DNA from: Taibaiella helva
Lineage (GTDB): Bacteria; Bacteroidota; Bacteroidia; Chitinophagales; Chitinophagaceae
Assembly (NCBI RefSeq): GCF_003545695.1
Contig: NZ_QUZZ01000016.1
Span: forward strand, 1 to 64,000
Direction: 5' to 3'
DNA: 64,000 nucleotides
The position numbers were made by a program, and so were the translations under genes. The notes under the pieces are model-generated. The model did no database searches. It was not told the DNA's origin and saw nothing but the letters and a program-made list of their open reading frames with translations. Numbering within the stretch: the stretch's first letter is position 1; every line of letters starts with the position of its first letter. Shown piece by piece: positions 1-13,590 of the stretch.

Positions 1-1130
1 GCTTTGTGGGGGTGAAGAAATTCTGCACCAAGAAGCCGGTGATGAAGCAGGAGAATGTATTGGTGGATATCTGCCCGGCGGATAAGGACAAATACCGCTT
101 TGGCTTTAACGGGCAGGAGAAAGTAAACGAGTGGGCGGGGATAGGGAATTTTATGGATTACACGGAGCGTGGGCAGGATACGAGGACAGGTAGATTCTTA
201 AGTGTTGACGCATTGTCAGATAAGTTCCCTTGGTATAGCCCTTATCAATTTGCTGGGAATACACCAATACAGGCTATTGACCTGGATGGAGCTGAACCTT
301 TCATGGGGATAAGTAGAGCATATCGAGGCGACTTTGGTAAAACCCCACAGAAAGCAGCGGTTTTCTATATCGACGTTTATAAGGGTGCTGCTAAAACCGT
401 GATTGCAGGCATCGGCCTTTTAACTGAGATACCTGGACAGGCGCATCACGCAGACAGAATGACGCCTGAAAACAGAGCGAATCATTTCACACAGACGAAT
501 GGAAAAAATGTAGCAGCGCTAGCTGCAGAGGCTGTGACAGCACCAATATCTGCAATTAGAGATGTATACAATAATCCGGCAAATGGAGAGAAGTGGGGGG
601 CGTTAGGAGTTATCATATATGGAGCTAAAACAGGGCTTGATTTCGCTTCTTGGAAGAAAGGTTCTCCCGTAAAAACAGAGACACCAGCAACCACCGCTGC
701 AAAGAGCTTTGAGCCAATTACTGTTAGCGATAAATTTTTTGAATCCTTAGGTGAGAGTGAAATAAGAGATAGCAAAAATACTCTCGTTGGAACTGTTTCC
801 AATTCAGATGGTAATTTGAACTTATTTATCCAAACCAAAGAGACCGGGCTTTCAGGAAGAGGAGGAGATGTATTTAAATCTCTTGTTAAGCATGCTCAGG
901 GGAAGGGTGGAGTATCAGGAATAAACGGAGTTTGGTCAGAGGGATCACTTGGTTCAAATCTGAGGTCATTTAATAAAGCAGTTCAGAGTGGTCTCTCTCC
1001 TCAAGAAGCTGCATTTAAAACTTTCACAGGTGAGAATGCTCGTGCACTAGGATTTGATAATGTTCAAATTCATAGATTAGAGGGTACTCCAGGTAATTAT
1101 ACAAGTGTAGAACTTACATTTCAAAAATAA
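1..1130 (+). CDS. RHS-repeat protein, C-terminal core end plus variable toxin-like tip (5' partial)
   Basis: The frame is open to the left edge, so this is the end of a longer gene; the GTG at 6 is only the first possible start inside the window. Residues about 25-95 carry the signature of the RHS-associated core (YRFGFNGQEK, GRFLSVDAL, YSPYQFAGNTPIQAIDLDG). After that comes a roughly 275-residue tail of different, AT-richer composition. In RHS/polymorphic toxins this position holds the cleaved effector domain, exported by T6SS, T9SS or other routes. I do not recognise the tip's fold: its last 130 residues (GDVFKSLVKHAQ, NLRSFNKAVQSGLSPQEAAFKTFTGENAR) match no toxin family I can name. A small gene follows after 10 bp, as expected for a toxin-immunity pair. 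The RHS call is secure; toxicity is inferred. Confidence 0.85.
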   Translation, partial: FVGVKKFCTKKPVMKQENVLVDICPADKDKYRFGFNGQEKVNEWAGIGNFMDYTERGQDTRTGRFLSVDALSDKFPWYSPYQFAGNTPIQAIDLDGAEPFMGISRAYRGDFGKTPQKAAVFYIDVYKGAAKTVIAGIGLLTEIPGQAHHADRMTPENRANHFTQTNGKNVAALAAEAVTAPISAIRDVYNNPANGEKWGALGVIIYGAKTGLDFASWKKGSPVKTETPATTAAKSFEPITVSDKFFESLGESEIRDSKNTLVGTVSNSDGNLNLFIQTKETGLSGRGGDVFKSLVKHAQGKGGVSGINGVWSEGSLGSNLRSFNKAVQSGLSPQEAAFKTFTGENARALGFDNVQIHRLEGTPGNYTSVELTFQK

Positions 1131-1140
1131 ACACAGCTAC

Positions 1141-1431
1141 ATGTTAAAGGAAATGCTTGAACTAGGCTTCTTTGAGATAAAGACAGGCGAAGATTCTAAG
1201 GTTAGGACTTTTAGATTATATGAGAAATATAAAGAAGTGCAATTGCGTATTTTAGTTAGCTTACAAAACGATGTTTTTGAAGTAGAGCATATTTTTTTTT
1301 ATTCTCCCAACTCAGATAAATTGAAGTTGGAACTATTTGGTAATGATATAACTGTCGCAAATGTGATAAGTAAAATTAAGGACCTACATAAGCTGTCTAA
1401 ACCATTTAATAAGAATCCTGAAACTGGTTAG
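1141..1431 (+). CDS. small unknown protein, candidate immunity protein of the RHS tip
   Basis: This 96-residue protein starts 10 bp after the RHS stop on the same strand. It has no signal peptide or membrane helix and is rich in Lys, Glu and Phe, with alternating hydrophobic strands (VQLRILVSLQNDVFEVEHIFFYS). I recognise no family. Position and size are what is expected of a cytosolic immunity protein neutralising the adjacent RHS C-terminal domain, but that is inference from gene order only. Base composition is as AT-rich as the RHS tip, which fits co-acquisition of the two. The gene ends just before a cluster of direct repeats. Confidence 0.5.
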   Translation: MLKEMLELGFFEIKTGEDSKVRTFRLYEKYKEVQLRILVSLQNDVFEVEHIFFYSPNSDKLKLELFGNDITVANVISKIKDLHKLSKPFNKNPETG

Positions 1432-1438
1432 TGGGGGT

Positions 1439-1521
1439 GGTAATGTTACAGATGTGTGGTTTGGTAGTGTGGTAATGTTACAGATGTGTGGTTTTAGGGT
1501 AATGTTACAGATGTGTGGTTT
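1439..1521. repeat. three direct copies of a 24-bp repeat
   Basis: A 24-bp unit containing AATGTTACAGATGTGTGG is present at 1439-1462, 1471-1494 and 1498-1521, identical each time and separated by 8 and 3 bp. Spacing is too short and irregular for CRISPR. Multiple short direct repeats like this occur at the ends of some insertion sequences (IS21-type ends have several), so this may be one end of a lost element next to the RHS tip; that is a guess. Confidence 0.8.
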
Positions 1522-1580
1522 TAGTCGTATTCATAATCTAAATGATTGATTTTTAAAGAAAGTTGTTTTAAGATGTTACC

Positions 1581-1612
1581 TAAACCGGATGGGCAATTGC
1601 CCATCCGGTTTA
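1581..1612. terminator. perfect 32-bp palindrome, terminator-like
   Basis: Two 16-bp arms (1581-1596 and 1597-1612) are exact reverse complements and are followed on the plus strand by TTTTTAAG. It lies between the repeat cluster and the InsA-like gene and could end transcription of the RHS-immunity pair. It also argues against starting the InsA-like gene upstream at 1546. Confidence 0.5.
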
Positions 1613-1638
1613 TTTTTAAGCTAAAAAAATCATCTGTG

Positions 1639-2007
1639 ATGCAACAAAATAAGACCTCATGTACCAGATGTGTGGGTGGTGAGAAATACTGTGATCACTG
1701 CGGCACGATTTACATCAGGCATGGCTACACAGTTTCCGGCAAACTCCGTTATAAATGCAAGAACTGCAACAGAACGAGAGTTGAACATTATAGCTATAAA
1801 GCTTATCGCCATTCTATCAACACTAATATCGTACGGCTCCTCAAAGAAGGCGTGGGCATCCGAAGCACAGCAAGATTATTGAAGATATCCACGACAACGG
1901 TAATAAAACGGATATTACGAATAGCCAGGGACCTTGAGGAGCTAAGTCTATGGGAAAAACACGCTTTAAGGTTTCTAAGAAGAAACTTCGCTATAATGGA
2001 CTTGTAG
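1639..2007 (+). pseudogene. IS1-family InsA-like transposase ORF, element truncated
   Basis: From the ATG at 1639 the protein has a zinc ribbon (CDHCG...YKCKNC) and then a helix-turn-helix region (KEGVGIRSTARLLKISTTTVIKRI), the layout of the InsA part of IS1 elements. A GGAAAAAC stretch near 1953-1960 sits where IS1 elements make their -1 frameshift, and the -1 frame does open there (ATG 1950, stop 2094-2096). After that point no InsB/DDE catalytic sequence follows; instead the tail of an unrelated transposase appears on the other strand. The element is therefore a remnant that cannot move by itself. Start 1639 is chosen over 1546 because of the palindrome at 1581-1612. Confidence 0.65.
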
Positions 2008-2097
2008 TACTTCAATCTTTTAATTCGGGCATAGCAATGCCTGAAAGCGGAGGTGAAGTATCAACGATTTCAAAGAGCAATCAAGGTATGTATTGAT

Positions 2098-2284
2098 TTA
2101 TGTTCGGTTCTGACAACAATAATTTTTGTTGACTTCGCGGCGTCGTTTCCGGTCGGGCGCGAAATCGGTATCCCAGCTTACACGTGTTGCACTGTATACT
2201 TCATGCGGTGTAAGGCCCTTATGACTGCCATGCGGCCTCCGGTGGTTATAGTCATTAATGATCTTTAAAATTTGCCTTTGTGGC
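2098..2284 (-). pseudogene. IS3/IS481-type transposase, C-terminal remnant
   Basis: Reading the minus strand, about 60 codons end at 2098 with INDYNHRRPHGSHKGLTPHEV, the typical end of an rve-type integrase core (YNxxRPHxSL...LTPxE). Nothing upstream on this strand resembles the rest of the DDE domain or the HTH ORF, so only the tail remains. It abuts the truncated IS1-like gene head-on. Together they mark a site of repeated insertion and deletion at the edge of the restriction-modification cassette. Confidence 0.7.
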
Positions 2285-2460
2285 GTGGGCAAAATGCGCG
2301 AAGGATAGGAGCGGAAAGCCCGCAACGAAGCGCAGCGTAGTGAGGACTTGCAGCGGATAGCCTGACCCCGGTTAGAAAAACAAGGCGAGGCACGAGCCGT
2401 AGTTTTTTCTTGCCGGGGGCGCGCCCAAACACACAATAATGTGCGCCGCAATATGCCCGT
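2285..2460. repeat. GC-rich non-coding block, possible interspersed repeat
   Basis: This stretch is markedly GC-richer than its surroundings and has no convincing reading frame. Its phrases (GGAAAGCCCGC, GCGGATAGCC, CTTGCCGGGGGCGCGCCC) remind me of GC-rich intergenic repeats in mobile regions of Bacteroidota genomes. That is recollection, not a search. Confidence 0.35.
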
Positions 2461-2518
2461 AATGTGGCTTATAACCCAACCCCATAAGATCCCTAGGTGG
2501 TGGGTGGGCTGGGTTCTT

Positions 2519-2642
2519 TTGTTAGCGGCGCAGCCGCGTAATTGTTTTAGCCTTTATTTTTAAAAGCAGGGGAGAGGTGCTGACCTGTAAACGGCTGCAA
2601 TTGATAAACGACCCTGTTCATTGTTAGCGGCCTTAGCCGCGC
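2519..2642. repeat. pair of short GC hairpins sharing TTGTTAGCGGC...GCCGCG
   Basis: Two similar elements, at 2519-2538 and 2621-2642, each begin TTGTTAGCGGC and end GCCGCG, so each can fold into a small hairpin. They lie just downstream of the cassette's last gene remnant. No coding function is visible between them. Confidence 0.45.
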
Positions 2643-2700
2643 AAAGTTTTTTGTTCTTTTGTTTTTTAAAAGGGTGTACAAGGGTAGGGGCAATGCAATA

Positions 2701-2886
2701 TTACCGGTCGTATTTTTCTCTTAGCTCCAGCTTTTTTATTCTCGATTCTATGGCTCCTTCGTTACGTGCAAAAATGGTGCTTAGCTCTTGCACTGCCGTT
2801 TTACTTTCGCAAAAAAGCAGCTCCAGCCGTTCATCGTCTTCCCGTGTCCAGCGTTCGTAAGCGTTTTTATGTGCCTGTTGTTTTAT
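2701..2886 (-). pseudogene. small Myb/SANT-like helicase-tail domain, no normal start codon
   Basis: The minus strand encodes about 61 residues: ERWTREDDERLELLF, then VQELSTIFARNEGAIESRIKKL, ending at 2701. This resembles the short C-terminal module found after some bacterial helicases and in small stand-alone ORFs (RWTxEDDExLLxLF...FxRxxGAIxSRIxKL). There is no in-frame ATG: the first codons after the methyltransferase stop at 2889 read ATA AAA CAA CAG, so a lost ATG (ATG to ATA at 2886) or an ATT/ATA start would be needed. It may be the last gene of the cassette or a decaying fragment. Confidence 0.45.
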
Positions 2887-2888
2887 AC

Positions 2889-4700
2889 CTATGAGAATAG
2901 TGCAACTTGTCTGCTTTGAATGGGTGTTATCTCCTCCATAAAATCAGCCCACAATTCAAAAGTCAGATTGAAATTGTATTTTTCGTTTATGTTATTCAAT
3001 TCTTTCTGTAATTCAGATTCATCAATAATCTTGGCCAACTCCAAAAGGTCGATGCGCATTAAAACATCTTTTGTAAACGTCCGCTTTGCATCGGTAAATG
3101 TTATAGACTGCAAGAATTTCATGGTTACATCGGAGTTTAAAAGTATCAAGGAGTATACAGCAAACTCCAACTTATCAAACCCCAACATGTAACAAGTGTC
3201 GTCAAGCATTACAGGCTTTTCACCTTGTGGCAGGACAAGACTAAAATGAAAAGTTTTATAAAGTCCTGAAATAGCTACCTTATATGGCTTAAATGAATAG
3301 TCGCCAATACCAAAAATTGAGAATGGTGGTTTATTCTTGTAAATGCTTGACTTTCTTAAATTGAAAACATCCTGATGTTTGGATAAATATTGATATGTTT
3401 TTGGATAGCCGTATTGGATGTAATTAGTTTCCTGCCCAACTTTTTTTTGTGTAACAATCGTGTATTTTCTCGTTTCTTTTATGACGGTATTTTTCAGGTC
3501 TGAACTTTTTAGAATACCATAAACCAAATCATTTTCTAATTTGATTTCTTCTTTCAGTCCGTTTACAAAATGCCCGTTTACTTTGTCCAATTCCATAATG
3601 GAAGAGCAGTCGTGTTTAATTCCTTGTCTCCATTCAAATGGGCAATTGCCATCTAAGTTTTTAGAGTGTGCATATATGTCGATATTCGAAACAAACTTTT
3701 GCGAAATCCACCCAAAACGGTTAGCTTTCCTTTCTTCCAACCTTCTATTTGTCCGTCGTATAGCTCGCTGTTCATTTGCATTATAAATTGAAAGTTCGGA
3801 ACATTCAAATTCGGGTTGGTTATTTAGTTTGCAATAGAACAAAGAAGCCTCTACAGAAACATTAAATTCCTTTTTGCTGTCAATTGAATATTTTTCGATT
3901 TCAGCAATTTTGTACTTATTATTATTTTGGTCGAAGACAATGTTCTTGATTACCGAATTTTTCACCAGCAAAGCAATATTTCCTTTCAAATTTTGAAAGG
4001 CTTCAATCATACTGAGTGTAATATATTCTGCAATGTCAAAATTTCCTTTTCCCGTAATTGCATCTAATCCACTATGATTTTTGAAGTTTTCTTTTTTAGG
4101 AAGATTGGATGAGTTGAGACCTCCTAACTTTGAATTAGTGACCCAGGGTGGATTGCCTATAACTAAAATTTCTTTGCCTGTATATTCGTTGGCAATGTCC
4201 TCGAAGTTAAAATCAAAAACGCTACTATGAATAATTGAAATTTGAGGCTTGTTCTCTTTAGTATTCTCTAAATAAAAATCAATAATATTGAACTTGCATT
4301 CCCATGTATAAGGTTTGTAAATTTCAATACCAATAATAGCCTTAGTGCTTTCAAAGTGCTGCAATGCTGCAAGAATAAAATTGCCTTTTCCACAAGTTGG
4401 TTCAATAACAATTTCTGGAGAAATACGCTTTGACACCAAACGTAAAGCGACTTTGTTGGCTAATTCTATATTTGTTTGAAAATCGCCATATTCAGCTCTA
4501 TCAGGTTCTTCTACTATATTGGCTATTATTGAAAGCTCTTCTTTAAAGTCAAGAAAATCGGATTCAGATTCAAAAAAAGAATTGATTCCTGATATAGAAT
4601 GAATTAAAAAATTAGCTGCTTCCAGCGATATATAAGAAGTAAGCTTCTCACAAAAGAACCTTTGAACAGCAGGCGGAATATGTGCTTCAAAAATTCTCAT
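2889..4700 (-). CDS. type II adenine-specific DNA methyltransferase
   Basis: This 603-residue protein carries the SAM-binding motif I (EPTCGKGNFILAAL, near residue 100) and the catalytic motif IV (GNPPWVTN, near 183). NPPW is typical of N6-adenine methyltransferases; motif I precedes motif IV, as in gamma-class enzymes. About 400 residues follow motif IV, presumably including target recognition. It would methylate the host's copies of the recognition site and protect them from the neighbouring nuclease. It is the third gene of a minus-strand cassette (regulator, nuclease, methyltransferase), 43 bp after the nuclease. Coding sequence is AT-rich, consistent with horizontal acquisition. The recognition site cannot be read from sequence alone. 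Confidence 0.88.
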   Translation of the reverse strand: MRIFEAHIPPAVQRFFCEKLTSYISLEAANFLIHSISGINSFFESESDFLDFKEELSIIANIVEEPDRAEYGDFQTNIELANKVALRLVSKRISPEIVIEPTCGKGNFILAALQHFESTKAIIGIEIYKPYTWECKFNIIDFYLENTKENKPQISIIHSSVFDFNFEDIANEYTGKEILVIGNPPWVTNSKLGGLNSSNLPKKENFKNHSGLDAITGKGNFDIAEYITLSMIEAFQNLKGNIALLVKNSVIKNIVFDQNNNKYKIAEIEKYSIDSKKEFNVSVEASLFYCKLNNQPEFECSELSIYNANEQRAIRRTNRRLEERKANRFGWISQKFVSNIDIYAHSKNLDGNCPFEWRQGIKHDCSSIMELDKVNGHFVNGLKEEIKLENDLVYGILKSSDLKNTVIKETRKYTIVTQKKVGQETNYIQYGYPKTYQYLSKHQDVFNLRKSSIYKNKPPFSIFGIGDYSFKPYKVAISGLYKTFHFSLVLPQGEKPVMLDDTCYMLGFDKLEFAVYSLILLNSDVTMKFLQSITFTDAKRTFTKDVLMRIDLLELAKIIDESELQKELNNINEKYNFNLTFELWADFMEEITPIQSRQVALFS

Positions 4701-4743
4701 CTTGCTCTGTTTTTGTATAACTGTAATTTAAAAAGACCCATTA

Positions 4744-5229
4744 TTAGAAGTCCTTTATCATTTCTTTTATTTTTTCTACTTTCTTCGCTTCCTTTCTCAT
4801 ATAAACCTCATATGCGTTCTTCATGCCTCTAAAAAATCCTTTTATATCTTGATTCTCATCTACTTTTAAAGGCTTACACATTTGAATAACTCCCCAGCCC
4901 TGCGCTTCTATAGTCAGGCAATCCCAATTTATGTTTTGAACGGGTATTAAACCTGAATCTTTAACAATTTCAAGTCCAGCTTCGGTTATTTTGTAATCAA
5001 CAAATATGAAATACAGTTCGTTCCCTTCTTGTTTTAACCATTCAATAAGTCTTTTAGCTGAGATTATATTAGGTGAATAGTTGTTTTTAGCTACATTGTT
5101 GCTTTTTACGTTCACAGGTTTATTAATCTTGTTGTTTAACAGGAAATCACCTATTGATTTTTTTGTTCCTTTTGCAACAGCGCCATGTTGTAGAGCAATT
5201 TCTGCCTCTATTTGCTGATAAATGTCCAT
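4744..5229 (-). CDS. probable type II restriction endonuclease
   Basis: This 161-residue protein sits between an XRE regulator (its ATG at 5229 directly abuts the regulator's stop) and a DNA methyltransferase. Near the N-terminus, GDF (Asp28) is followed by NVKSNN (Lys42), which fits a variant PD-(D/E)xK nuclease core with Asn in place of the acidic residue. A strand NELYFIFVDYKI and the phrase GWGVIQM follow, as in compact type II enzymes. The family call rests mainly on gene order plus this motif; I cannot assign a prototype. An alternative is a small accessory protein of the methyltransferase. Lys-rich, strongly charged C-terminus. Confidence 0.6.
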   Translation of the reverse strand: MDIYQQIEAEIALQHGAVAKGTKKSIGDFLLNNKINKPVNVKSNNVAKNNYSPNIISAKRLIEWLKQEGNELYFIFVDYKITEAGLEIVKDSGLIPVQNINWDCLTIEAQGWGVIQMCKPLKVDENQDIKGFFRGMKNAYEVYMRKEAKKVEKIKEMIKDF

Positions 5230-5730
5230 TTATTTCTTATCGGTCTGGTTAAGGGTCAAATTTAGGCTAATATTTTGGTGTTCAATAGCATAATATCCCT
5301 TACCGATAAAAACCATTTGCTTAGGCTCATTTCCCCCAATCAGCTTCTCCAACCTCCCCATCATTTCATCTTTCTCCTTTAGCATCCTTTCATATATCTT
5401 CTCATCATGCAACTTCTTTAACTCTTCAATAGGGTTAAAATTAAAAGTGGAGTTGGGATTGCCTACACAAGCATTATCTCCAAATGTATTTGAGATGATA
5501 TTAATCGCTTGCTCCTCATCAAAATTCTGTATTGCTTCCACAGGTATTTTCAATGCAGCAGAAATCTGTTGGAGTAGGGGAGTATCAACAGTTTCCTTTT
5601 GTTCCAGCAGCGATATTTTTTGTTGGTTCCAATCGTCGCCAAGGTCGGCGGCAAGCGCATCTTGCTTTATACCTAGCATTTCACGGAAACGTTTTACGTT
5701 TCGGCCTTCATGTATCTTGTTGTTTGGCAT
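5230..5730 (-). CDS. XRE-family helix-turn-helix regulator (controller-like)
   Basis: From the ATG at 5730 the protein begins MPNNKIHEGRNVKRFREMLG, the usual opening of Bacteroidota XRE regulators, then a helix-turn-helix (IKQDALAADLGDDWNQQKISLLEQ, roughly residues 20-50). A linker and a Lys/Glu-rich helix (about 110-140, likely coiled coil for dimerisation) follow. Upstream in-frame starts (TTG 5757, ATG 5748) exist but would add a non-conserved extension. It is the first gene of the restriction-modification cassette and probably times nuclease expression against methyltransferase expression, as controller proteins do. The regulatory role is inferred from position. Confidence 0.75.
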   Translation of the reverse strand: MPNNKIHEGRNVKRFREMLGIKQDALAADLGDDWNQQKISLLEQKETVDTPLLQQISAALKIPVEAIQNFDEEQAINIISNTFGDNACVGNPNSTFNFNPIEELKKLHDEKIYERMLKEKDEMMGRLEKLIGGNEPKQMVFIGKGYYAIEHQNISLNLTLNQTDKK

Positions 5731-5890
5731 AGTTTTAAAAGTTGTCATTAATGGCAAATTTAATTTATTCGTATCACATTATTTAAAGGTACGTAAAATA
5801 CAATGTTGCATTCGGTAAAGTACAAAGCCACCGTGTAGGTTACGGCATGGCAGCGGCATTGCTTTGCAGTACACAAACAGCATAAACCCC

Positions 5891-6112
5891 ATGAGTACAG
5901 AAAACAACCTTCGCCCAAGCAATGTACGCCTTCTTAAAGTGTACGACAAAATGTTTTGCCGTGGTGGCCGGTTCATCACCGCCCATCATTACACTATCAT
6001 TTTCCCGGAAATAAGATTGATTGGCAAATGGCTTTATGATTGCGGCTTTACACCCGGCCAATGCAAACAATTAACCCCACAACAGCAAACAAATTATCGG
6101 CAAGGCGTATAA
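5891..6112 (+). CDS. SymE-like toxin-family protein, altered C-terminus
   Basis: The 73-residue product has the SymE-type core: VRLLKVYDKM, then FPEIRLIGKWLYDCGFTPGQ (compare ...I.L.GKWL...GF..G). SymE proteins have an AbrB-like fold and act as RNA-cleaving or nucleoid-compacting toxins normally silenced by an antisense RNA. After GFTPGQ the sequence departs from the family (CKQLTPQQQTNYRQGV), suggesting a frameshift in the last strand. It diverges from the restriction cassette across about 160 bp and overlaps the next SymE-like gene by 52 bp. Likely non-functional or altered. Confidence 0.6.
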   Translation: MSTENNLRPSNVRLLKVYDKMFCRGGRFITAHHYTIIFPEIRLIGKWLYDCGFTPGQCKQLTPQQQTNYRQGV

Positions 6113-6300
6113 CCGTTTGTGGTAAACAGCTTGGCCGGTTTTCGGGCCGGCGTTATGTCCGCTTTCCAATCATTAGCCTCACGGGTAAGTGGCTGCAGGA
6201 TAGCGGCTTTAAAATAGGTCATGTGGTAGATGTGGTGAGCGATAATGGAAAAATTACCATCACCTTATCCAAAGAGCAACCGCATTTTGATTACGAATAG
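6061..6300 (+). CDS. SymE-like toxin-family protein
   Basis: The 79-residue protein from ATG 6061 contains VRFPIISLTGKWLQDSGFKIGHVVDVV and a complete final strand DNGKITITLSKE, so unlike its upstream neighbour the SymE/AbrB-like fold looks whole. The two genes overlap in different frames and share the GKWL-(Q/Y)D-(S/C)GF core, pointing to tandem duplication. In E. coli symE lies beside the hsd restriction genes; here too the pair adjoins a restriction-modification cassette. I cannot identify an antisense RNA by eye. An ATG at 6040 in frame is possible, but 6061 gives the more natural N-terminus. Confidence 0.65.
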   Translation: MQTINPTTANKLSARRITVCGKQLGRFSGRRYVRFPIISLTGKWLQDSGFKIGHVVDVVSDNGKITITLSKEQPHFDYE

Positions 6301-6321
6301 TAAAGAAAATCCTGCACGACA

Positions 6322-6455
6322 ATGAAAAAGGCAAAGTATATTGAACTGTGGCTGCAACGGCATCCGGGCCCGATTTAAGCGAATTGGTACTGGATATAGT
6401 GGCATTAATGGACTTGGTGGAGCGGCTGGAAAAGGAAACATATTATGTTAAATAG
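6322..6455 (+). pseudogene. short unknown gene broken by a frameshift
   Basis: From ATG 6322 the frame reads MKKAKYIELWLQRHPGP and then stops at TAA. Switching frame at that point gives a clean helical continuation, DLSELVLDIVALMDLVERLE, ending in a stop at 6453-6455. Neither half is long enough alone, so one indel near 6370 probably split a gene of about 43 codons. The function is unknown. It lies 22 bp after the second SymE-like gene and could be part of the same unit. Confidence 0.4.
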
Positions 6456-6481
6456 GTAGATGTTGTATATTTAATCCCGGA

Positions 6482-6694
6482 ATGAGAAAGGATATTGTAC
6501 AATCGAAAGCTATTGATGAGTTGGGTAAAAAGCTGGGCGCATTGGGCTACAAGCCCCAGCCAGAAAGGGTTTCAGGCCAAAGCATTGCTTTTACATCATC
6601 CAAAGGAAAGCCTTTAGAAGTAATTGTGTGCCTGCTTAACTTGGCAATACATACAGGTTGGCCCGTGTTTCGTAATTATACTCCCGCTCATTAA
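6482..6694 (+). CDS. unknown small protein, possibly truncated
   Basis: This 70-residue frame opens with MRKDIVQSKAIDELGKKLG and GQSIAFTSSKGKPLEVIV, which look like genuine protein, but ends with a less plausible tail. The same frame reopens beyond the stop. No family is recognised. It may be the front of a decayed island gene. Confidence 0.3.
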   Translation: MRKDIVQSKAIDELGKKLGALGYKPQPERVSGQSIAFTSSKGKPLEVIVCLLNLAIHTGWPVFRNYTPAH

Positions 6695-6736
6695 TGCTTA
6701 CGCTGCGCTCCCTATCCAATGCTGTATATGCGCGAT

Positions 6737-6913
6737 ATGAAAACGCTATTGTACCTTATACCAAGTACCGTATTCGATACGCCTAACAATGTTTTCCTTA
6801 ATCACGAGCAACTGCCGGCATTGCGTCATTTTTCCACCTGGGAAATAAAAGTGTTTACCAAAGCCGTTCCTGAACTAAGCCGTTATGCGCTGGACGCTGT
6901 AAGCGAGCTATAG
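6737..6913 (+). CDS. unknown small protein, doubtful
   Basis: From ATG 6737 the frame reads MKTLLYLIPSTVFDTPNN and on to FSTWEIKVFTKAVPELSR over 58 residues. It is in the same frame as the preceding small ORF with one stop between, so the two may be parts of one broken gene. No family is recognised, and composition does not separate it clearly from chance. Confidence 0.2.
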   Translation: MKTLLYLIPSTVFDTPNNVFLNHEQLPALRHFSTWEIKVFTKAVPELSRYALDAVSEL

Positions 6914-7050
6914 CGCGGCCTTGAAAAAATGGCGTTAAATGCAGAGCCTGTGCGGTGGCTTTGTGCCGTAAAATTGGCGGCGTAAATTTCTTTTTTAAAA
7001 CGCCGCAAAAATTTTACCAGCAAAACAGCTTTGGGCAGCGGCTATTTATT

Positions 7051-7109
7051 ATTATAGGACAACGGATTTGCGTGAGCCTAAACAGCGTGTGCCCGTTTTG
7101 TCCTATAAT
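7051..7109. repeat. 12-bp perfect inverted repeat with 35-bp spacer
   Basis: ATTATAGGACAA at 7051-7062 is repeated in reverse complement at 7098-7109. Three further bases (CGG/CCG) can pair after a 2-nt offset. The spacer is not a simple loop and there is no T-run. It could be an operator, a recombination site or the ends of a tiny mobile element. Confidence 0.6.
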
Positions 7110-7726
7110 TTATATTATGTTAAGTAAAAATTTCACTCGCAATCCCCCACCAGCCACATTCGAAATCATCGCTCGTATTTATTGAACTTTCCCAACAGCA
7201 TCTAATGCTCATACCTCAATTCGCATACCAGCGCCCCACATGTTGACAAAATATTCCCGGGAAGCAATGGAAAAGAAAACAGTTTTTCTGCAGCACCAGG
7301 AAAACCATGAGCAAAAAAATCAGCGTTTGTGTCTATTGAAAATGCCCTGGGGTTCATTTTTCTTTGCAGGTAATGACCAGCCCTAAATACAATGTCATTG
7401 CAGCAAGGCCAGCCAATGTATTGAGCAAGTTAATACATAAATCATCACCCGATCGCGGCCAAAATTGATTGAGGTACAGAAAAATGGAAGCAGCACGGCT
7501 CCCTACTCTGCTCCGGACTTCCGGCGCTGAATGGCTGGCCAATTTTGCCTTCGCTTTCCTTCTAAAGTTCTGTAAATACAGGAATATTGGTATTTGTAGT
7601 GCTTGGTAGTTACAATAATATTGTAGGATGAGGATGAAGTATGGGCGATGAAGCTGCCTGGGATAGTCCGAAATGGGTATATATTTTTAAATATTCATAC
7701 TGCATGAAAAATGCACTCTCAGTCTT

Positions 7727-7734
7727 TACTTTTG
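7727..7734 (+). promoter_or_regulatory. candidate -7 element upstream of the Cys-rich peptide
   Basis: TACTTTTG matches the Bacteroidota -7 consensus TAnnTTTG. It would give a leader of about 130 nt before the ATG at 7870. I see no clear -33 TTTG, so this is weak. Confidence 0.3.
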
Positions 7735-7869
7735 CTTCATAACCCGGCTTATTGGTCGTAATGGCTAGTCCCTTTGCCGGTAAATGATATTTCCATAGGT
7801 AGATAACTGGTGGAAGCCGAAAAACCAAACTAAAAACAGAGTAGGCATCATTATTAAATCCTTAAGTGT

Positions 7870-8016
7870 ATGAATCTGTCAAAGATCAATCGGAAGGTGG
7901 TTAAAACCATAAAACCTGTCAATCCGACGCAGACTTTGTCCATTGAATCGTTGAAAAAAGTAATGGGCTGCGGCTGTTATGCCGCCCATTGCTGTGTAGC
8001 CAAAAACGTTCAATAG
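7870..8016 (+). CDS. 48-residue Cys-rich leader-type peptide (RiPP-like precursor)
   Basis: ATG 7870 to TAG 8014-8016 encodes 48 residues. The first 30 are basic and leader-like, ending TLSIESLKKVMG; the last 16 are GCGCYAAHCCVAKNVQ, with four Cys in CxC and CC pairs. 'LS.E.LKKV.G' just before a Cys-rich core is the general look of ribosomally made, post-translationally modified peptide precursors, with cleavage expected near Met32-Gly33. There are no Ser/Thr in the core, so lanthionine formation is not possible there; disulfides, metal binding or another Cys chemistry would be needed. Two large unknown TPR proteins follow on the same strand, starting 161 bp downstream. Function unknown; coding is likely from its clean codon structure. 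Confidence 0.6.
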   Translation: MNLSKINRKVVKTIKPVNPTQTLSIESLKKVMGCGCYAAHCCVAKNVQ

Positions 8017-8177
8017 GTCATTGCCGGGGTAATTGTGTCAGGCGGTCGCCTTTCATGATTACCCTTTCTCCCGGCACATACACAGGTATATGAGCGCCCA
8101 CTAAGACTGTGTTGCTCCTCCTCTCCCCGATACCTGCACTGCCGGCGCCCGAATTGCTTACCAAACCAAGTAAAGCT

Positions 8178-10508
8178 ATGATCACCATTTTACGGGGCAC
8201 TTCCGGGAACCTGATCCGGTATGTAGCCCGGGAGTACACTACACCGAAGGATTTTATCATCCTGGGGTCGAAAGAGTTCGCATTACCTTTTCTCCTTGTG
8301 CGGCTGGTTATGCCAGTGCTGCGCAAGCGGCTGGGTAACGAACAGGTGGAAGGAATGCTGCGTGTCCATAAACTTTCTTTCAGCCTTATTTTCAACAAGC
8401 TCACGGAAGCGCTGAGTCTTGAGGAGCAGGGGGAGCAGACCTTGCTTACCGCCCGCTTGTCTTCCAACATCACCCATAGCAGGGTGGCCAAAGATGCTAT
8501 TTTAAAAGTATATGCCCGGGCGCTTCTGGACATGAAGGAAAGATATGATTTCAGATTGATCATCCCGGATACGACGCACCTGGATACCGGCAGCCTTGAT
8601 CTGCTGCTTTACCTGTACCAGGTTTTCCCCGACAGCGCTCCCGACCTGGTTATCGGTTATGATCCTGCCTGGAAAAAACCGGTAACGGAGCCGGATACGG
8701 GCATCAGCTGGTACTACGCCCTGGACTCAGATACAGTATTGCGCGGTTTTGTATATGCCTTTGAAGCTGCGGCAACCGAGACAAAAGATATTAACAGCAC
8801 GGGTGGTATTGACATTACAGGGAATAAGGCGGACCGGGAGTCGCCAGGTATCGAATGGGCCGAACGCCTGGATACGTTTGACGACGGGCTGGAGCTAAAG
8901 GCCTTTGCGCTCGCCGCGACTGCTCCGCAGCAACTGGATGATAACCAGAAAGCGTTGATGCTCGAGGGCATTCACCGCTGCTTCCGTTTATACGATTTTA
9001 CCAACGCCCTGTTGCTGAGCCTGCGGTCGTTAGCCGCACTGGGACCGGTGATCAGCAACAGCGAGAAGGCTACGCTGTACCACATCATGGCTTTATCGGC
9101 ACACAACCGGCATTTTTTTTCCCAGGGAAACCAGGCGCTGGCCGCTTTTATTGATCATGCATTGCAGAAGGCCCTGCTTTACGAAACGGATCCAGCCACC
9201 AGCGTGGCGATCCTGTATCGCCTCATCGTCACCCACGGAAGACGAAAGGAGGCGCCGGGCGAGGCCTATGCCTTCCTCGAGCGTGCCTACCAGTTATTGA
9301 AGGGAAGCAGCTTTGACCACAAAGAGCTGCTTACGGCCTGGATCAATAATATACACAGCTTCCTGCTGATGAAACAGGGTAAAATAAAAGAGGCGATTGC
9401 GGCGCATGAGGAGGGCTTTTATTTGCTGGACGCACTGACGGTCACCGGTCCGCCTGCTATAAAAAATGAAATAGCCTTTACCAAAGCTGTTCTGGCGGAA
9501 AATCTGTCCACCTTGAATGCGCTGTCGGGAAATTTCAAGCAAATGAAGATATGGTATGCTATCGAGAGCAAGCTGTCGGAGCAATGGCCGGCATTGCATG
9601 CTGTACCTTCTGCCGAATGGCAGTCTTTCCATTATCAGAATCTGGAGCTGGGCAAAGCCCTGGAAAAAACGCAGCAAGGATTGGCAAAGGCCAGGAATAG
9701 CTTTCACTATGTACTGGAATATTTTTTCACGATAAGCGCAGCCGACATTCACTATCGTATGGGTGACGCGGCCAACGCCCTGGTATATTTTGAAAAAGCG
9801 TTGATCTTCCAGGGCCGGATCGGTTATGAATATGCGTCCGTACATACTTTGCGCATTTACCTTATTAAAACGAAGCTACGGCTGAACAGGATCGAGGAGG
9901 CCCTGGTCGACCTAGCAGAAATGAAAAAGGAACCCGTGGAAGTAGCCATGGAGCCTATTGAAATTTGCCTGGTATCCGCCTATGTACATAGCCTTGCGGG
10001 AGCCGTTGCAAAAGCAGAAGCAGAAATAAATACAGCTATCGACCTCGCCATTGCCGACGGTGATTGCGGCACGCTGGTGAAGGTCATGTTGTGGGCAGGA
10101 CTTGTTTGCCAGCAGCTGAACAGGACGGAAGATGCCCTGGCCGCTTATCTCCAGGCCCTGGAAATATCGCGGACAGTATTAGACGGGATACCCTATCAGC
10201 CGGATACGGCAGACCTGGCTGAAGTCTATTTCGGGTTATATGAATGCAGTAAAGAGAATACGGGCTACCTGGACCAGGCTATAGATAATCTATCCTTGTC
10301 CTTGAAAGGAAACGCAGACAGCTGGTGGTGCTTATCTCCCATCCTGGATGCCTTTTCCCGTCTGCCGCCCGGGAAGCGGGAAAGCTACCTGAAGAAAAAT
10401 AAGCCGGCCCTGGACCGTATCAGGAAGGCGGCAAGGCAAAGAAAGGATTGCCGACCCTATTTAAACACGTTAAAACTCAGCTCCACTAAAAAGCTAACAC
10501 CTCAATAA
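8178..10508 (+). CDS. large TPR protein of unknown function, first of a paralogous pair
   Basis: Start ATG 8178 (MITILRGTSGNLIRYV) is preferred over an upstream GTG because the next gene's protein opens the same way (MIRIYQGSSAQIAS). The product has 776 residues. Residues 1-170 form an alpha/beta domain with strand RLIIPD (126-131), a helix, and strand PDLVIGYDP (155-163), which resembles the Walker-B half of STAND/AAA ATPases (hydrophobic strand, Asp, then 'D..SL.LL..L...P...LVI'); no Walker A P-loop is visible. From about 260 to 750 are TPR-like helical pairs (for example AAYLQALEISR, ANALVYFEKAL). It has no signal peptide or membrane segment. It is co-transcribed with its paralogue (1-bp gap) and probably with the Cys-rich peptide upstream. 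The molecular function is unknown. Confidence 0.8.
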   Translation: MITILRGTSGNLIRYVAREYTTPKDFIILGSKEFALPFLLVRLVMPVLRKRLGNEQVEGMLRVHKLSFSLIFNKLTEALSLEEQGEQTLLTARLSSNITHSRVAKDAILKVYARALLDMKERYDFRLIIPDTTHLDTGSLDLLLYLYQVFPDSAPDLVIGYDPAWKKPVTEPDTGISWYYALDSDTVLRGFVYAFEAAATETKDINSTGGIDITGNKADRESPGIEWAERLDTFDDGLELKAFALAATAPQQLDDNQKALMLEGIHRCFRLYDFTNALLLSLRSLAALGPVISNSEKATLYHIMALSAHNRHFFSQGNQALAAFIDHALQKALLYETDPATSVAILYRLIVTHGRRKEAPGEAYAFLERAYQLLKGSSFDHKELLTAWINNIHSFLLMKQGKIKEAIAAHEEGFYLLDALTVTGPPAIKNEIAFTKAVLAENLSTLNALSGNFKQMKIWYAIESKLSEQWPALHAVPSAEWQSFHYQNLELGKALEKTQQGLAKARNSFHYVLEYFFTISAADIHYRMGDAANALVYFEKALIFQGRIGYEYASVHTLRIYLIKTKLRLNRIEEALVDLAEMKKEPVEVAMEPIEICLVSAYVHSLAGAVAKAEAEINTAIDLAIADGDCGTLVKVMLWAGLVCQQLNRTEDALAAYLQALEISRTVLDGIPYQPDTADLAEVYFGLYECSKENTGYLDQAIDNLSLSLKGNADSWWCLSPILDAFSRLPPGKRESYLKKNKPALDRIRKAARQRKDCRPYLNTLKLSSTKKLTPQ

Positions 10509-10509
10509 G

Positions 10510-12765
10510 ATGATCAGAATATACCAGGGATCTTCTGCACAGATCGCAAGCCAGTTCCGCTCGTTAAAGGACGAAGCGGGCAATGCCGTTTACCTAGACA
10601 ACAACAGCGCCTTCCCTACGGGATGGTGGGGCATAAGAAGGTTGATTCATACCTTGAAGGAACATTTTTCTGCTAAAGACATCGATGAGGTTTTAGAAAG
10701 ACACCAGGCCATCAGCTGCTTCCTGTTTCCCGAAAGAATCCATACACTGACGGGCGCCGGAGCAAAGGAGTATGATTTTTACAAGGCCAGGCTGGAATCC
10801 CGTCTTAATGTTCCGTATGGTTTGCTGGAAGCCGTTGCCAGGTTGCTGGAACAGTTGATCAGTCCTTATACCTTCTCCCTGATGATCCCTGATCCGGTCA
10901 CTATCGATTCGGAAAGCCTGAGGGTAATCGAAAATTATTACCGCCTGTTCCCCGGTACACAGCAAAAAATATTCGTAGGTTTCCCGACAGATATTGTTGA
11001 CCGGGAAGATGCCGATGGGATTACCTGGGAGCGTTCCCAGGGAACGGTGCAGTATTTTGTGGGCAATCTTTTCCGCTACCCTGCCGTGGAGGTCATTCAG
11101 CTGGATGTTGCAGCGCAAAAAAACGTAAAGCAAACGGATCAAGCTTCTGAAAGTGCCGCGCGACTGGCAGACCAGGAGACGCTCACCTTCGACAGCTTGA
11201 CCGATCGGGAGCTGGACGCCGGAAAAGTGCTGGCGGCCATCAGGGTGATGACGTCTTCTTATGAACGCTATTCTTTCAGGGCAGTAATGAAGATCGGGAT
11301 GAAAGTGCTGGAAACGCAGCTGTTGACGGACGATGCCCTGAAAGCCGCAGTTCACGGCTTGGTGGGCTCGGCTGCCAGCTTTTACCAATTTACGCATCAT
11401 GGCAATCCGCCCTTTGATGATTTCCTGGAAGCGCACTTCAGGCAGGCGCTGCGCTTTGAGACCCGCCCCGAGATCAGGTCGGCCTTGCTCTACCGTATCA
11501 CCTTTACCCTCGCCGAAAGAAAGGCGGACCCGGGTGGTGCGCTTGCGTGGGCCGAACAGGCAGTGGTTGAAGCCAGTCAGAATGCCCTGCCAGAGTTTCA
11601 GCACGATTACCATCTTGCCTGGGCGCTCAATGTGAGAGCGCATGTATATGCCCATAGCGGAAGGCTGGAAGCTTGCCGGGAAGATGCGGAAAAAGCCTAT
11701 GCTTTGCTGAAAAACGGCCTGACCCGTATGGAACAGGAAGGAGATACTTCGCTGAACTATTGGACCGATGATTACAAACGTTCTATATTCAACCTGGCTA
11801 TTCACCAGGTCTATACCGGCGATGAAATCAATGAGCCGGAGTACAGCAGGGAATGGTTTAAACGAATGAGCTGGGTTATGAGGCTGGTGCCCGGTATCAT
11901 GCGATTCGATACCTTTCACTGGGTAGACTATCACAGGAACAAGCTGGCCTTGCGGGATGCCTTACTGGCAGCAGAGGAAGGCATTGAAGACGCGCTCTGC
12001 TTCAGGCATGGCCAGCTGTATGTATACCTGTTCTGTGCTGCAGACCTGAACTACCGGATCGGTAACGCCGGCAAAGCGCTTCAGCTGTTTGAGCAGGCGG
12101 AACAGGTACGCCCCTTGTACAACGACCTGTTCCATATGTTTTCGTTTCCCTGGTTCATAGGGAATTGCTATGCAAAAATGGGCCAGACCGATAAAGCGGA
12201 AGCCATTTTCAAAAATGAGCTGGCCAATGCCGGTGAGGTGGACTACCGCATCCGGCTGCTGACCAGCCTGGCATTGCTATCTGCCGGGAAAGGAGAAAAG
12301 GAGAAGTCGGAGCGCCGCATGAATGACGCCATTGACCTGGCCGTGGAATATGGCGAGCAGAATCTTTTGCTCAAGGTGACTGCTGGAGCCGGCGATGTCT
12401 TACACCGTATCGGCGATGCTGCCGGAGCTGAGGAAGCTTATAACCAGGCAATGGATCTTGTGTTCGCGCTCGGCCAGGAGGGCCTGGCTTTAAACAGTGC
12501 CTACCTGTTTGAAATGTATGTAGGCCATTTGACCGTTCTCGGATACAATGAAGAACGCTTTGCCGGGGCGATCCGGCTGCTTCCTGATGCGTTGGATGAT
12601 ATGGAAAGCTGGTGGCATCTTCCCGCCCTGGCCCCTTTTGCTGAGAAATTCAGAAATAACAATCCCGGCGATATAGAACACACGGAGATAGCGGGGGTCT
12701 TACAAATATTCGATATGGTAATGGCCGAGCGGACGGAGTATGCTATGACAGCTATGTCCCGTTAA
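10510..12765 (+). CDS. large TPR protein of unknown function, second of a paralogous pair
   Basis: The 751-residue product starts one base after the upstream stop (TAAGATG), so translation is probably coupled. It follows the same plan as its neighbour: opening MIRIYQGSS, helices around 40-80 and 100-120, strand SLMIPD (123-128) and strand KIFVGF (153-158), then TPR-like repeats (GKALQLFEQAEQV, AEAIFKNELANAG, AEEAYNQAMDLVF). Both proteins end with an equivalent 'AIDLA...L.KV..(A)G' helix and a DSWW/ESWW motif near the C-terminus. It also lacks a P-loop. Identity between the pair is low by eye, so the duplication is old and both copies are kept, which suggests a heteromeric complex or ordered action. 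Unknown function. Confidence 0.8.
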   Translation: MIRIYQGSSAQIASQFRSLKDEAGNAVYLDNNSAFPTGWWGIRRLIHTLKEHFSAKDIDEVLERHQAISCFLFPERIHTLTGAGAKEYDFYKARLESRLNVPYGLLEAVARLLEQLISPYTFSLMIPDPVTIDSESLRVIENYYRLFPGTQQKIFVGFPTDIVDREDADGITWERSQGTVQYFVGNLFRYPAVEVIQLDVAAQKNVKQTDQASESAARLADQETLTFDSLTDRELDAGKVLAAIRVMTSSYERYSFRAVMKIGMKVLETQLLTDDALKAAVHGLVGSAASFYQFTHHGNPPFDDFLEAHFRQALRFETRPEIRSALLYRITFTLAERKADPGGALAWAEQAVVEASQNALPEFQHDYHLAWALNVRAHVYAHSGRLEACREDAEKAYALLKNGLTRMEQEGDTSLNYWTDDYKRSIFNLAIHQVYTGDEINEPEYSREWFKRMSWVMRLVPGIMRFDTFHWVDYHRNKLALRDALLAAEEGIEDALCFRHGQLYVYLFCAADLNYRIGNAGKALQLFEQAEQVRPLYNDLFHMFSFPWFIGNCYAKMGQTDKAEAIFKNELANAGEVDYRIRLLTSLALLSAGKGEKEKSERRMNDAIDLAVEYGEQNLLLKVTAGAGDVLHRIGDAAGAEEAYNQAMDLVFALGQEGLALNSAYLFEMYVGHLTVLGYNEERFAGAIRLLPDALDDMESWWHLPALAPFAEKFRNNNPGDIEHTEIAGVLQIFDMVMAERTEYAMTAMSR

Positions 12766-12885: not shown

Positions 12886-13590
12886 ATGGCTATGAAAAAT
12901 TTTACTGCCGAATTTATGGGCACCTTCTGGCTGGTCTTTGGCGGCTGTGGCAGCGCGCTGCTGGCTGCCGGCATTCCGGAACTGGGTATCGGCTACGCCG
13001 GTGTCGCATTAGCATTCGGACTCACTGTACTCACCCTGGCCTACGGACTGGGCCACATCTCCGGTGCACATTTCAACCCTGCGGTTACACTGGGCCTGTG
13101 GGCGGCCGGCCGGCACAAAGGCGGACAGGTGCTCCCCTACATTATTGCGCAGCTGCTGGGCGCTACAGTCGCTGCGGCGGTGCTGTATTTCATTGCCTCC
13201 GGAAAGCCGGGGTTTGAGGCCGGTGGCTTTGCTTCCAACGGCTATGGCGAGCATTCGCCACATGGCTATTCGATGGGCGCCGCCCTGGTGATCGAGGCCG
13301 TGCTTACTTTCGGCTTCCTGATCGTCATTATCGGTTCTACCGATGAGCGCGCTCCCAAAGGCTTTGCGGGTATCGCTATCGGCCTGGCGCTGACGCTGAT
13401 CCACCTGATCAGCATACCGGTGACCAATACTTCAGTAAACCCCGCGCGCAGCACCAGCCAGGCTATATTTGCCGCAGTTGGCGGACAAGGCTGGGCCCTG
13501 AGCCAGCTCTGGGCTTTCTGGGTAGCGCCGATTGTGGGCGCTGTATTGGCCGGGGCTGTTTACAACCTGTTCTGGAAAAAGAATGACTGA
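12886..13590 (+). CDS. aqpZ: aquaporin Z-type water channel
   Basis: This 234-residue MIP-family channel has both half-helix NPA motifs: [14 protein letters not shown] (near 63) and [13 protein letters not shown] (near 185). Six hydrophobic segments are visible, starting from [22 protein letters not shown]. Arg directly after the second NPA is the selectivity-filter residue, and the sequence as a whole reads as the water-selective AqpZ type rather than a glycerol facilitator. It acts in the inner membrane. It is a single gene: 120 bp after the TPR pair and followed by its own strong terminator. Confidence 0.95.

Follow-up and report, generated by a model that had tools for sequence, protein, structure and literature searches.

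A conserved Cys-rich peptide gene beside a TPR paralogue pair: a candidate peptide-making system in Bacteroidota

Introduction

The window, that is, the whole 64,000-nucleotide stretch of Taibaiella helva DNA analyzed here, carries a short gene for a Cys-rich peptide ahead of two large genes for proteins with TPR repeats. This locus raises the question of whether so short a frame is a real gene and, if so, what its product does together with the two TPR proteins. The preliminary description of this DNA had read the genes as a peptide-linked system, and this reading was borne out by a peptide gene in all six loci found and by a C39 exporter and an HlyD adaptor in five of them. On balance, we lean toward an operon whose product is a short RiPP-like peptide destined for export and in which the TPR1/TPR2 pair would handle the precursor in the cytosol. 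Judged from its genes, the system looks like an undescribed peptide-making system that recurs in distantly related Bacteroidota. The features of the locus are listed in Table 1. The preliminary description was silent on both RNA elements and on the exporter, which is usual in the system yet absent here.

Table 1. Features of the peptide locus in the window
Feature	Position	Strand	Remarks
DUF805b cis-regulatory RNA (Rfam RF02914)	7807..7847	+	22 nt before the peptide ATG; cmscan 37.9 bits
48-aa precursor-like peptide	7870..8016	+	leader to about residue 35, then a short Cys/His core
Stem-loop between peptide and TPR1	8022..8076	+	-27 kcal/mol, z -4.7; attenuator, terminator or processing site
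TPR1, 776 aa	8178..10508	+	alpha/beta N-terminal domain matching no detected family, then TPR superhelix
TPR2, 751 aa	10510..12765	+	TPR1 paralogue; begins 1 nt after TPR1

Conservation of the peptide gene

The TPR pair was found in six genomes of four genera: the window genome, G302 of the same class, Kordia sp. TARA_039_SRF (locus L020, genome G581), and G776, G944 and G978, which belong to one other genus within the family of Kordia. A homologous peptide ORF of 47 to 51 codons lies directly 5' of TPR1 in 6/6 loci, and the pair was found without it in 0/6. In the window, the three frames are open on a common strand with no internal stops. The claimed 48-residue peptide is genuine and not a chance ORF, because homologues precede the pair in every locus, third codon positions vary most, and pN/pS is 0.12 to 0.52 among peptide pairs with amino acid differences. 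G776 gave ratios of 0.12 with G944 and 0.15 with G978; more distant pairs, in which synonymous sites are near saturation, gave 0.22 to 0.52. The peptides of G944 and G978 are identical, and their genes differ at synonymous sites only. Conservation at the amino acid level was also found, with 56% between the window peptide and that of G302, 63% to that of Kordia and 38 to 40% to the other three. Alignment of the six peptides showed 13 invariant columns (M1, N2, L3, K5, V11, K12, S24, K30, M32, G33, G35, Y37 and C41). The G302 peptide starts with MNLFKIKP and later reads KKVMGGGAYNSHCC, the Kordia peptide starts with MNLSKINS and continues with KKVMGGGGYGAHCC, and the G776 peptide starts with MNLSKLNS and includes NKIMGGGCYCNCSS; those of G944 and G978 contain NKIMGGGCYCHCST.

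The junction of leader and core reads GGG in five of the six peptides. The window peptide is the sole exception; when tested for a double-glycine junction, it showed G-C-G. The cores (CYAAHCC, AYNSHCC, GYGAHCC, CYCNCSS and CYCHCST) are rich in Cys and His. A core lacking Ser and Thr, as described for the window peptide, holds for the window and Kordia but does not extend to G302, G776, G944 and G978, whose cores have Ser or Thr. The Cys/His-rich cores could also belong to a metal-binding, chalkophore-like exported peptide, which we consider quite improbable, given that the ligand pattern varies by lineage and that neither an MNIO nor a metal-uptake gene was recognized by eye in the loci. Neither NCBIfam nor PHROGs gave the window peptide a name. 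The A9 profile, used to look for the peptide apart from the TPR pair in 194 genomes from the family to which G776 belongs (a sample from which G581 and G944 were presumably absent), recovered G776 itself and four further matches of 15 to 22 residues (E 0.004 to 0.008). These four were judged to be chance matches, as they lie in long other frames or run across stops.

Exporter and adaptor genes

In five of the six loci (G302, Kordia, G776, G944 and G978), a C39-peptidase ABC exporter (PCAT) gene and an HlyD adaptor gene lie directly behind TPR2 on the same strand. Each PCAT exceeded the Pfam cut-offs for Peptidase_C39, ABC_membrane and ABC_tran, as did each adaptor for HlyD_3, and the Cys, His and Asp motifs of the C39 domain and the ATPase motifs were present in 5/5 PCATs. 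In the three PCATs scanned against NCBIfam, peptide-export ABC families were the best matches (E 1e-135 to 1e-137, below the curated cut-offs). The PCAT and HlyD genes in these five loci are direct evidence, at the level of predicted genes, for a peptide-export locus.

Between the peptide and the adaptor, the five loci contained only TPR1, TPR2 and PCAT genes, and the window only TPR1 and TPR2; no class-defining lanthipeptide, rSAM or YcaO enzyme was found when the window TPR proteins were scanned with Pfam and NCBIfam, ten N-terminal parts with Pfam, and the flanks were mostly read by eye. In the window, neither a PCAT nor an HlyD gene lies behind TPR2, and a major intrinsic protein (aquaporin) gene starts at 12886, 120 nt past it. 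With the exporter and the cleavage site both missing, the window copy, a single case, appears uncoupled from export at its own locus. Elsewhere in the window genome, one match on contig C33 spans a whole C39 transporter, 50% identical to that of G302. It adjoins a lantibiotic dehydratase gene (Lant_dehydr_N and Lant_dehydr_C), an HlyD-like gene (by eye) and an 84-aa precursor-like ORF with GGG. This region (L021 4645-12609, on C33) is a separate class I lanthipeptide-like cluster of the same genome.

RNA elements around the peptide gene

The DUF805b motif ahead of the peptide gene scored over the RF02914 gathering cut-off of 35.6 in four of the six loci (37.9 in the window, 46.6 in G302, 44.5 in Kordia and 38.0 in G776); in G944 and G978 the score was below the cut-off, and the motif was visible in the alignment. 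DUF805b reportedly originates from a published motif survey, and we found no function for it in the literature. Three of the genomes gave 48 matches to it in total (10 in the window genome, 6 in G302 and 32 in Kordia). Thirty of these loci (L022-L051) were read, 7 of them scoring under the cut-off. An ATG followed the motif at 9 to 32 nt in 26/30 and overlapped it in one, and three loci (L027, L036 and L045) were not oriented. By raw count, the next ORF was a leader-type peptide (by eye, at most 92 aa) in 12/30, with a GG junction in 10 of the 12; three of the 12 were the peptides of TPR-pair loci, and the other DUF805b loci preceded secreted or other proteins. DUF805b may be a 5' UTR element common ahead of peptide precursor genes.

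Pairing within the motif was tested in 33 loci (L022-L051, L060, L061 and L064), of which 30 were parsed, L027, L036 and L045 being left aside. The three bases before GAAAA paired with the three after AGTA at all three positions in 25/30 parsed loci; L031, with ACC/GGT by eye, is one beyond the 25. The pairings included GCC/GGC, TCC/GGA, ACC/GGT and GCT/AGT, and partners exchanged between loci paired in 40%. This pairing points to a putative 3-bp pseudoknot in DUF805b.

A stable hairpin lies 3' of the peptide gene in 6/6 loci, with z from -2.9 to -8.8; for G776, G944 and G978 the minimum-energy fold behind these values takes in a second hairpin, and in G776 one of 200 shuffles was as stable. 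In a terminator scan, the hairpin was terminator-like in the five relatives and not in the window, and a second terminator-like hairpin lay behind the first in G776, G944 and G978. Attenuators often come after precursor genes, and for this reason we read the hairpin as a device for peptide excess. Alternatively, the peptide and TPR genes could be largely transcribed separately.

Sequence of the TPR proteins

The two tandem proteins are paralogues, as had been proposed, with 24% identity between TPR1 and TPR2 (E 1.4e-31) and N-terminal parts that match each other in profile-profile comparison (E 1.3e-20). Window TPR2 is 44% identical to that of G302, 48% to that of Kordia and 29 to 30% to those of G776, G944 and G978; for TPR1, identity was 32 to 40%. 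Translational coupling of TPR2 is plausible in the window because its start lies 1 nt past the TPR1 stop, but it is not a conserved feature, since 4 to 43 nt separate the two genes elsewhere, in the other five loci, depending on the start assigned.

The statement that the two proteins match no known modification, immunity or transport family withstood profile searches, in which only TPR repeats exceeded the Pfam cut-offs. NCBIfam and PHROGs named neither window protein; one PHROG of unknown function matched the TPR part of TPR2 (E 2.2e-4). No Pfam family exceeded its cut-off in ten N-terminal parts, and stray matches below the cut-offs (E 0.005 to 0.15) in three of the ten differed between members. 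A STAS likeness of TPR2 residues 106-148 was dropped as too weak (E 0.27).

Most of the invariant residues lie behind residue 250, namely, 80 of 106 in TPR1 and 95 of 119 in TPR2. They include 5 Trp in TPR1 and 6 in TPR2, and 3 and 6 His, respectively; invariant Trp, His, Arg and Asn are found along the TPR part, and invariant Asp is also present in the pair. The conserved residues past 250 would fit a binding surface or an active site there.

These residues bear on a rather unlikely alternative, in which a new RiPP class would have the TPR pair as its maturase, with an enzymatic N-terminal domain and a TPR part that holds the leader. The pair occupies the slot between precursor and exporter, the usual place of RiPP enzymes, it shares an N-terminal domain that matches no detected family, and it has invariant His, Asp, Arg and Trp. 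However, no enzyme family or fold was found, and the N-terminal 250 residues have fewer invariants (26 in TPR1 and 24 in TPR2) than the remainder. A more elaborate version, to which we give equally little credence, sees a new ribosomal peptide class whose whole maturation machinery would be the TPR pair with its new N-terminal domain, a two-component maturase under DUF805b control; the window version would have been cut loose from export and would now be an intracellular peptide-protein module.

Predicted fold of the TPR proteins

Structure prediction, which the preliminary description had named as a check, gave, for both proteins, a long TPR superhelix preceded by a low-confidence alpha/beta domain at the N terminus. 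The AlphaFold models were built with three sequences each and had mean pLDDT values of 69.8 and 72.5, with the N-terminal domains partly below 50, so low that fold searches scarcely probed these domains. The TPR parts matched peptide-binding TPR structures, LGN among them (best Z 23.1 for TPR1 and 17.6 for TPR2). The RRNPP receptors Rap, NprR and PlcR were among the matches listed with Z 14.0 to 19.3, other TPR proteins scoring equally or higher. Because TPR is a common fold, these matches are merely permissive. Fold, Pfam and profile searches detected neither a leader-binding domain nor an enzyme fold in the TPR proteins.

The RRNPP matches bring up a peptide-pheromone system, in which PCAT exports a signal and the TPR proteins are intracellular receptors akin to Rap, NprR and PlcR. 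Regulatory genes do adjoin several loci. Within the G776 genus, all three loci (L060, L061 and L064) have a response regulator on the minus strand beyond HlyD (domain confirmed in L060 and L061, from G776 and G944), with a 119- to 130-aa protein and, further on, a histidine kinase (confirmed in L060, from G776). A histidine-kinase ATPase gene is divergent from the peptide gene in G302, and an AraC-type regulator lies upstream in Kordia. Against this, Pfam found no DNA-binding domain in the N-terminal 260 residues of the ten parts, no oligopeptide importer was recognized by eye in the ORF lists, the Z-scores are generic for TPR proteins, and the adjacent regulators vary between loci. We therefore regard a pheromone system as improbable. 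The genes beyond HlyD in L060, L061 and L064 are possible regulators of the operon; the 119- to 130-aa protein matched no Pfam family in L060, the locus tested.

A STAND/MalT origin of the N-terminal domain is hinted at by strand order, by an IPDxxxxDxxSL motif and by a Foldseek match to 6mfv, a STAND-TPR protein, which ranked first for TPR2 and 48th for TPR1. No GK[ST] of a Walker A P-loop was found after strand 1 in 6/6 TPR1 and 6/6 TPR2 sequences. In hhalign, the N-terminal profiles scored 15.0 to 16.8 against a profile of seven MalT-like sequences, with a probability of 0.1 to 0.2 percent, which is not significant. The joint N-terminal profile, for which alone shuffles were made, scored 15.3 against 9.7 to 14.7 for eight column-shuffled controls, and its best alignment lands on the Walker B stretch of MalT. 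Because the P-loop is absent and the profile match is not significant, the TPR proteins were not classed as STAND.

Distribution of the TPR pair

The TPR pair is rare. With P0001 as the query, it was found in 1/195 genomes of the window's own family (E 1e-10; its own genome) and in 2/395 genomes of the class (E 1e-6; its own and G302), and three congeneric genomes gave no match. With the A4 query at E 1e-20, the counts were 1/12 in the order of G302, 3/397 in the family of G581, 3/3 in the genus of G776 and 1/396 (its own genome) in the window's own order. The A8 query at E 1e-12 found 1/395 (its own genome) in a sample of the phylum in which G302 and the other carriers were not all included. 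These samples overlap, the large ones were often scored on the two best candidates per genome, and distant relatives can escape such counts. A scan of genome contigs with two peptide patterns matched 90 stretches, of which one was confirmed.

With six TPR2 patterns, one stretch of viral contigs matched and none was confirmed, and a search of plasmids for TPR2 relatives found none. PADLOC at 0.01 gave no match for the window TPR proteins (P0001 and P0002). An origin in phages, plasmids or defense systems was dropped on these grounds.

Proposed mechanism

In the operon reading that we favor, the DUF805b leader RNA would control the message, and the stem-loop behind the peptide gene would lower read-through into the TPR genes, leaving the peptide in excess. 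The dedicated TPR1/TPR2 pair would recognize the precursor in the cytosol, either carry out its maturation or protect its thiols from oxidation, and then pass it to the exporter. As its catalytic motifs are intact and GGG is present at the junction, the C39 peptidase of PCAT would probably cut at GGG, and PCAT and HlyD would export a Cys/His/Tyr peptide of 12 to 16 residues. The window copy may use the distant PCAT on contig C33, may work intracellularly or may stand at an early stage of decay.

Several points count against the operon reading. It draws on six loci from four genera, and neither export feature is present in the window copy. In the window genome, no match other than the PCAT on C33 spans a C39 domain, and this PCAT lies beside its own LanB and its own precursor-like ORF. 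The low confidence of the TPR models and the variety of regulators from locus to locus weigh against a firm reading.

Comparison with known systems

The export of double-glycine peptides is already known. The present loci resemble PCAT-exported peptides with double-glycine leaders (class II bacteriocins and many RiPPs, including the Bacteroidales clusters of PMC10352776) in the short precursor, the GG(G) leader end and the PCAT with an HlyD-type adaptor (5/6). They differ in having two dedicated TPR paralogues and no recognized modification enzyme from precursor to adaptor, and the window copy has neither the exporter nor GG. The leader wording near the junction is similar to that of Bacteroidota leaders of the TIGR04149 and NF038158 types, but of the five distinct peptides scanned (the sixth is identical to the fifth), three gave matches, all of them sub-threshold (E 0.41 to 0.97).

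The nearest published parallel consists of two Bacteroidales clusters, BGC2 and BGC9, in which a TPR gene lies within a PCAT-bearing peptide cluster beside an rSAM gene (BGC2) or a LanM gene (BGC9) and is discussed as a regulator (PMC10352776). By gene content, the TPR gene and PCAT are common to these clusters and the present loci, whereas rSAM and LanM are theirs only.

RRNPP receptors and the TPR proteins both have a TPR superhelix, predicted in the latter, which could hold a peptide; in place of the receptors' HTH or Rap-type helical N-terminal domain, which Pfam did not detect in the ten N-terminal parts, the models give a low-confidence alpha/beta domain. STAND ATPases with TPR (MalT and 6mfv) share the layout of an alpha/beta N-terminal domain followed by TPR, but the P-loop is missing here at its expected place. 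In the literature searched, we found no report of a precursor and an exporter accompanied solely by two TPR paralogues that share a new N-terminal domain. Such a set is easily overlooked because RiPP finders seek known enzymes. If the TPR pair is a maturase or an obligatory carrier, peptide biosynthesis would gain a further protein fold. In addition, the locus offers an experimental handle on DUF805b, which often precedes leader-type peptide genes in the loci read.

Genomic surroundings of the window copy

A further explanation concerns the window copy alone and is compatible with any reading of the other loci, namely, that it is a decaying relic with no present function. The missing PCAT and HlyD genes, the change from GGG to GCG, the three same-genus genomes with no match, and a low-GC stretch just upstream that contains restriction-modification genes and a fragment of an IS1-like transposase speak for a relic. 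The peptide frame and both large frames are nevertheless intact, and a relic is possible but, in our judgment, not the likelier state of this copy.

In 4-kb steps, GC was 39 to 40% over window positions 1-8000 and 48 to 55% elsewhere, which places the peptide gene at the border of a GC-poor region. The IS1 fragment, with an InsA-type HTH domain, lies at 1546-2007. The region 2889-5757 on the minus strand is likely a restriction-modification system; it contains a gene for a type II methyltransferase (MTase_II in PADLOC, E 1.6e-133), an HTH gene and an ORF of 161 aa that matches a SwaI-like endonuclease below the threshold (E 0.003). At 6-1130, an ORF looks by eye like the C terminus of an RHS-repeat protein, with no Pfam match at 0.01, and a 96-aa ORF that follows it could be its partner.
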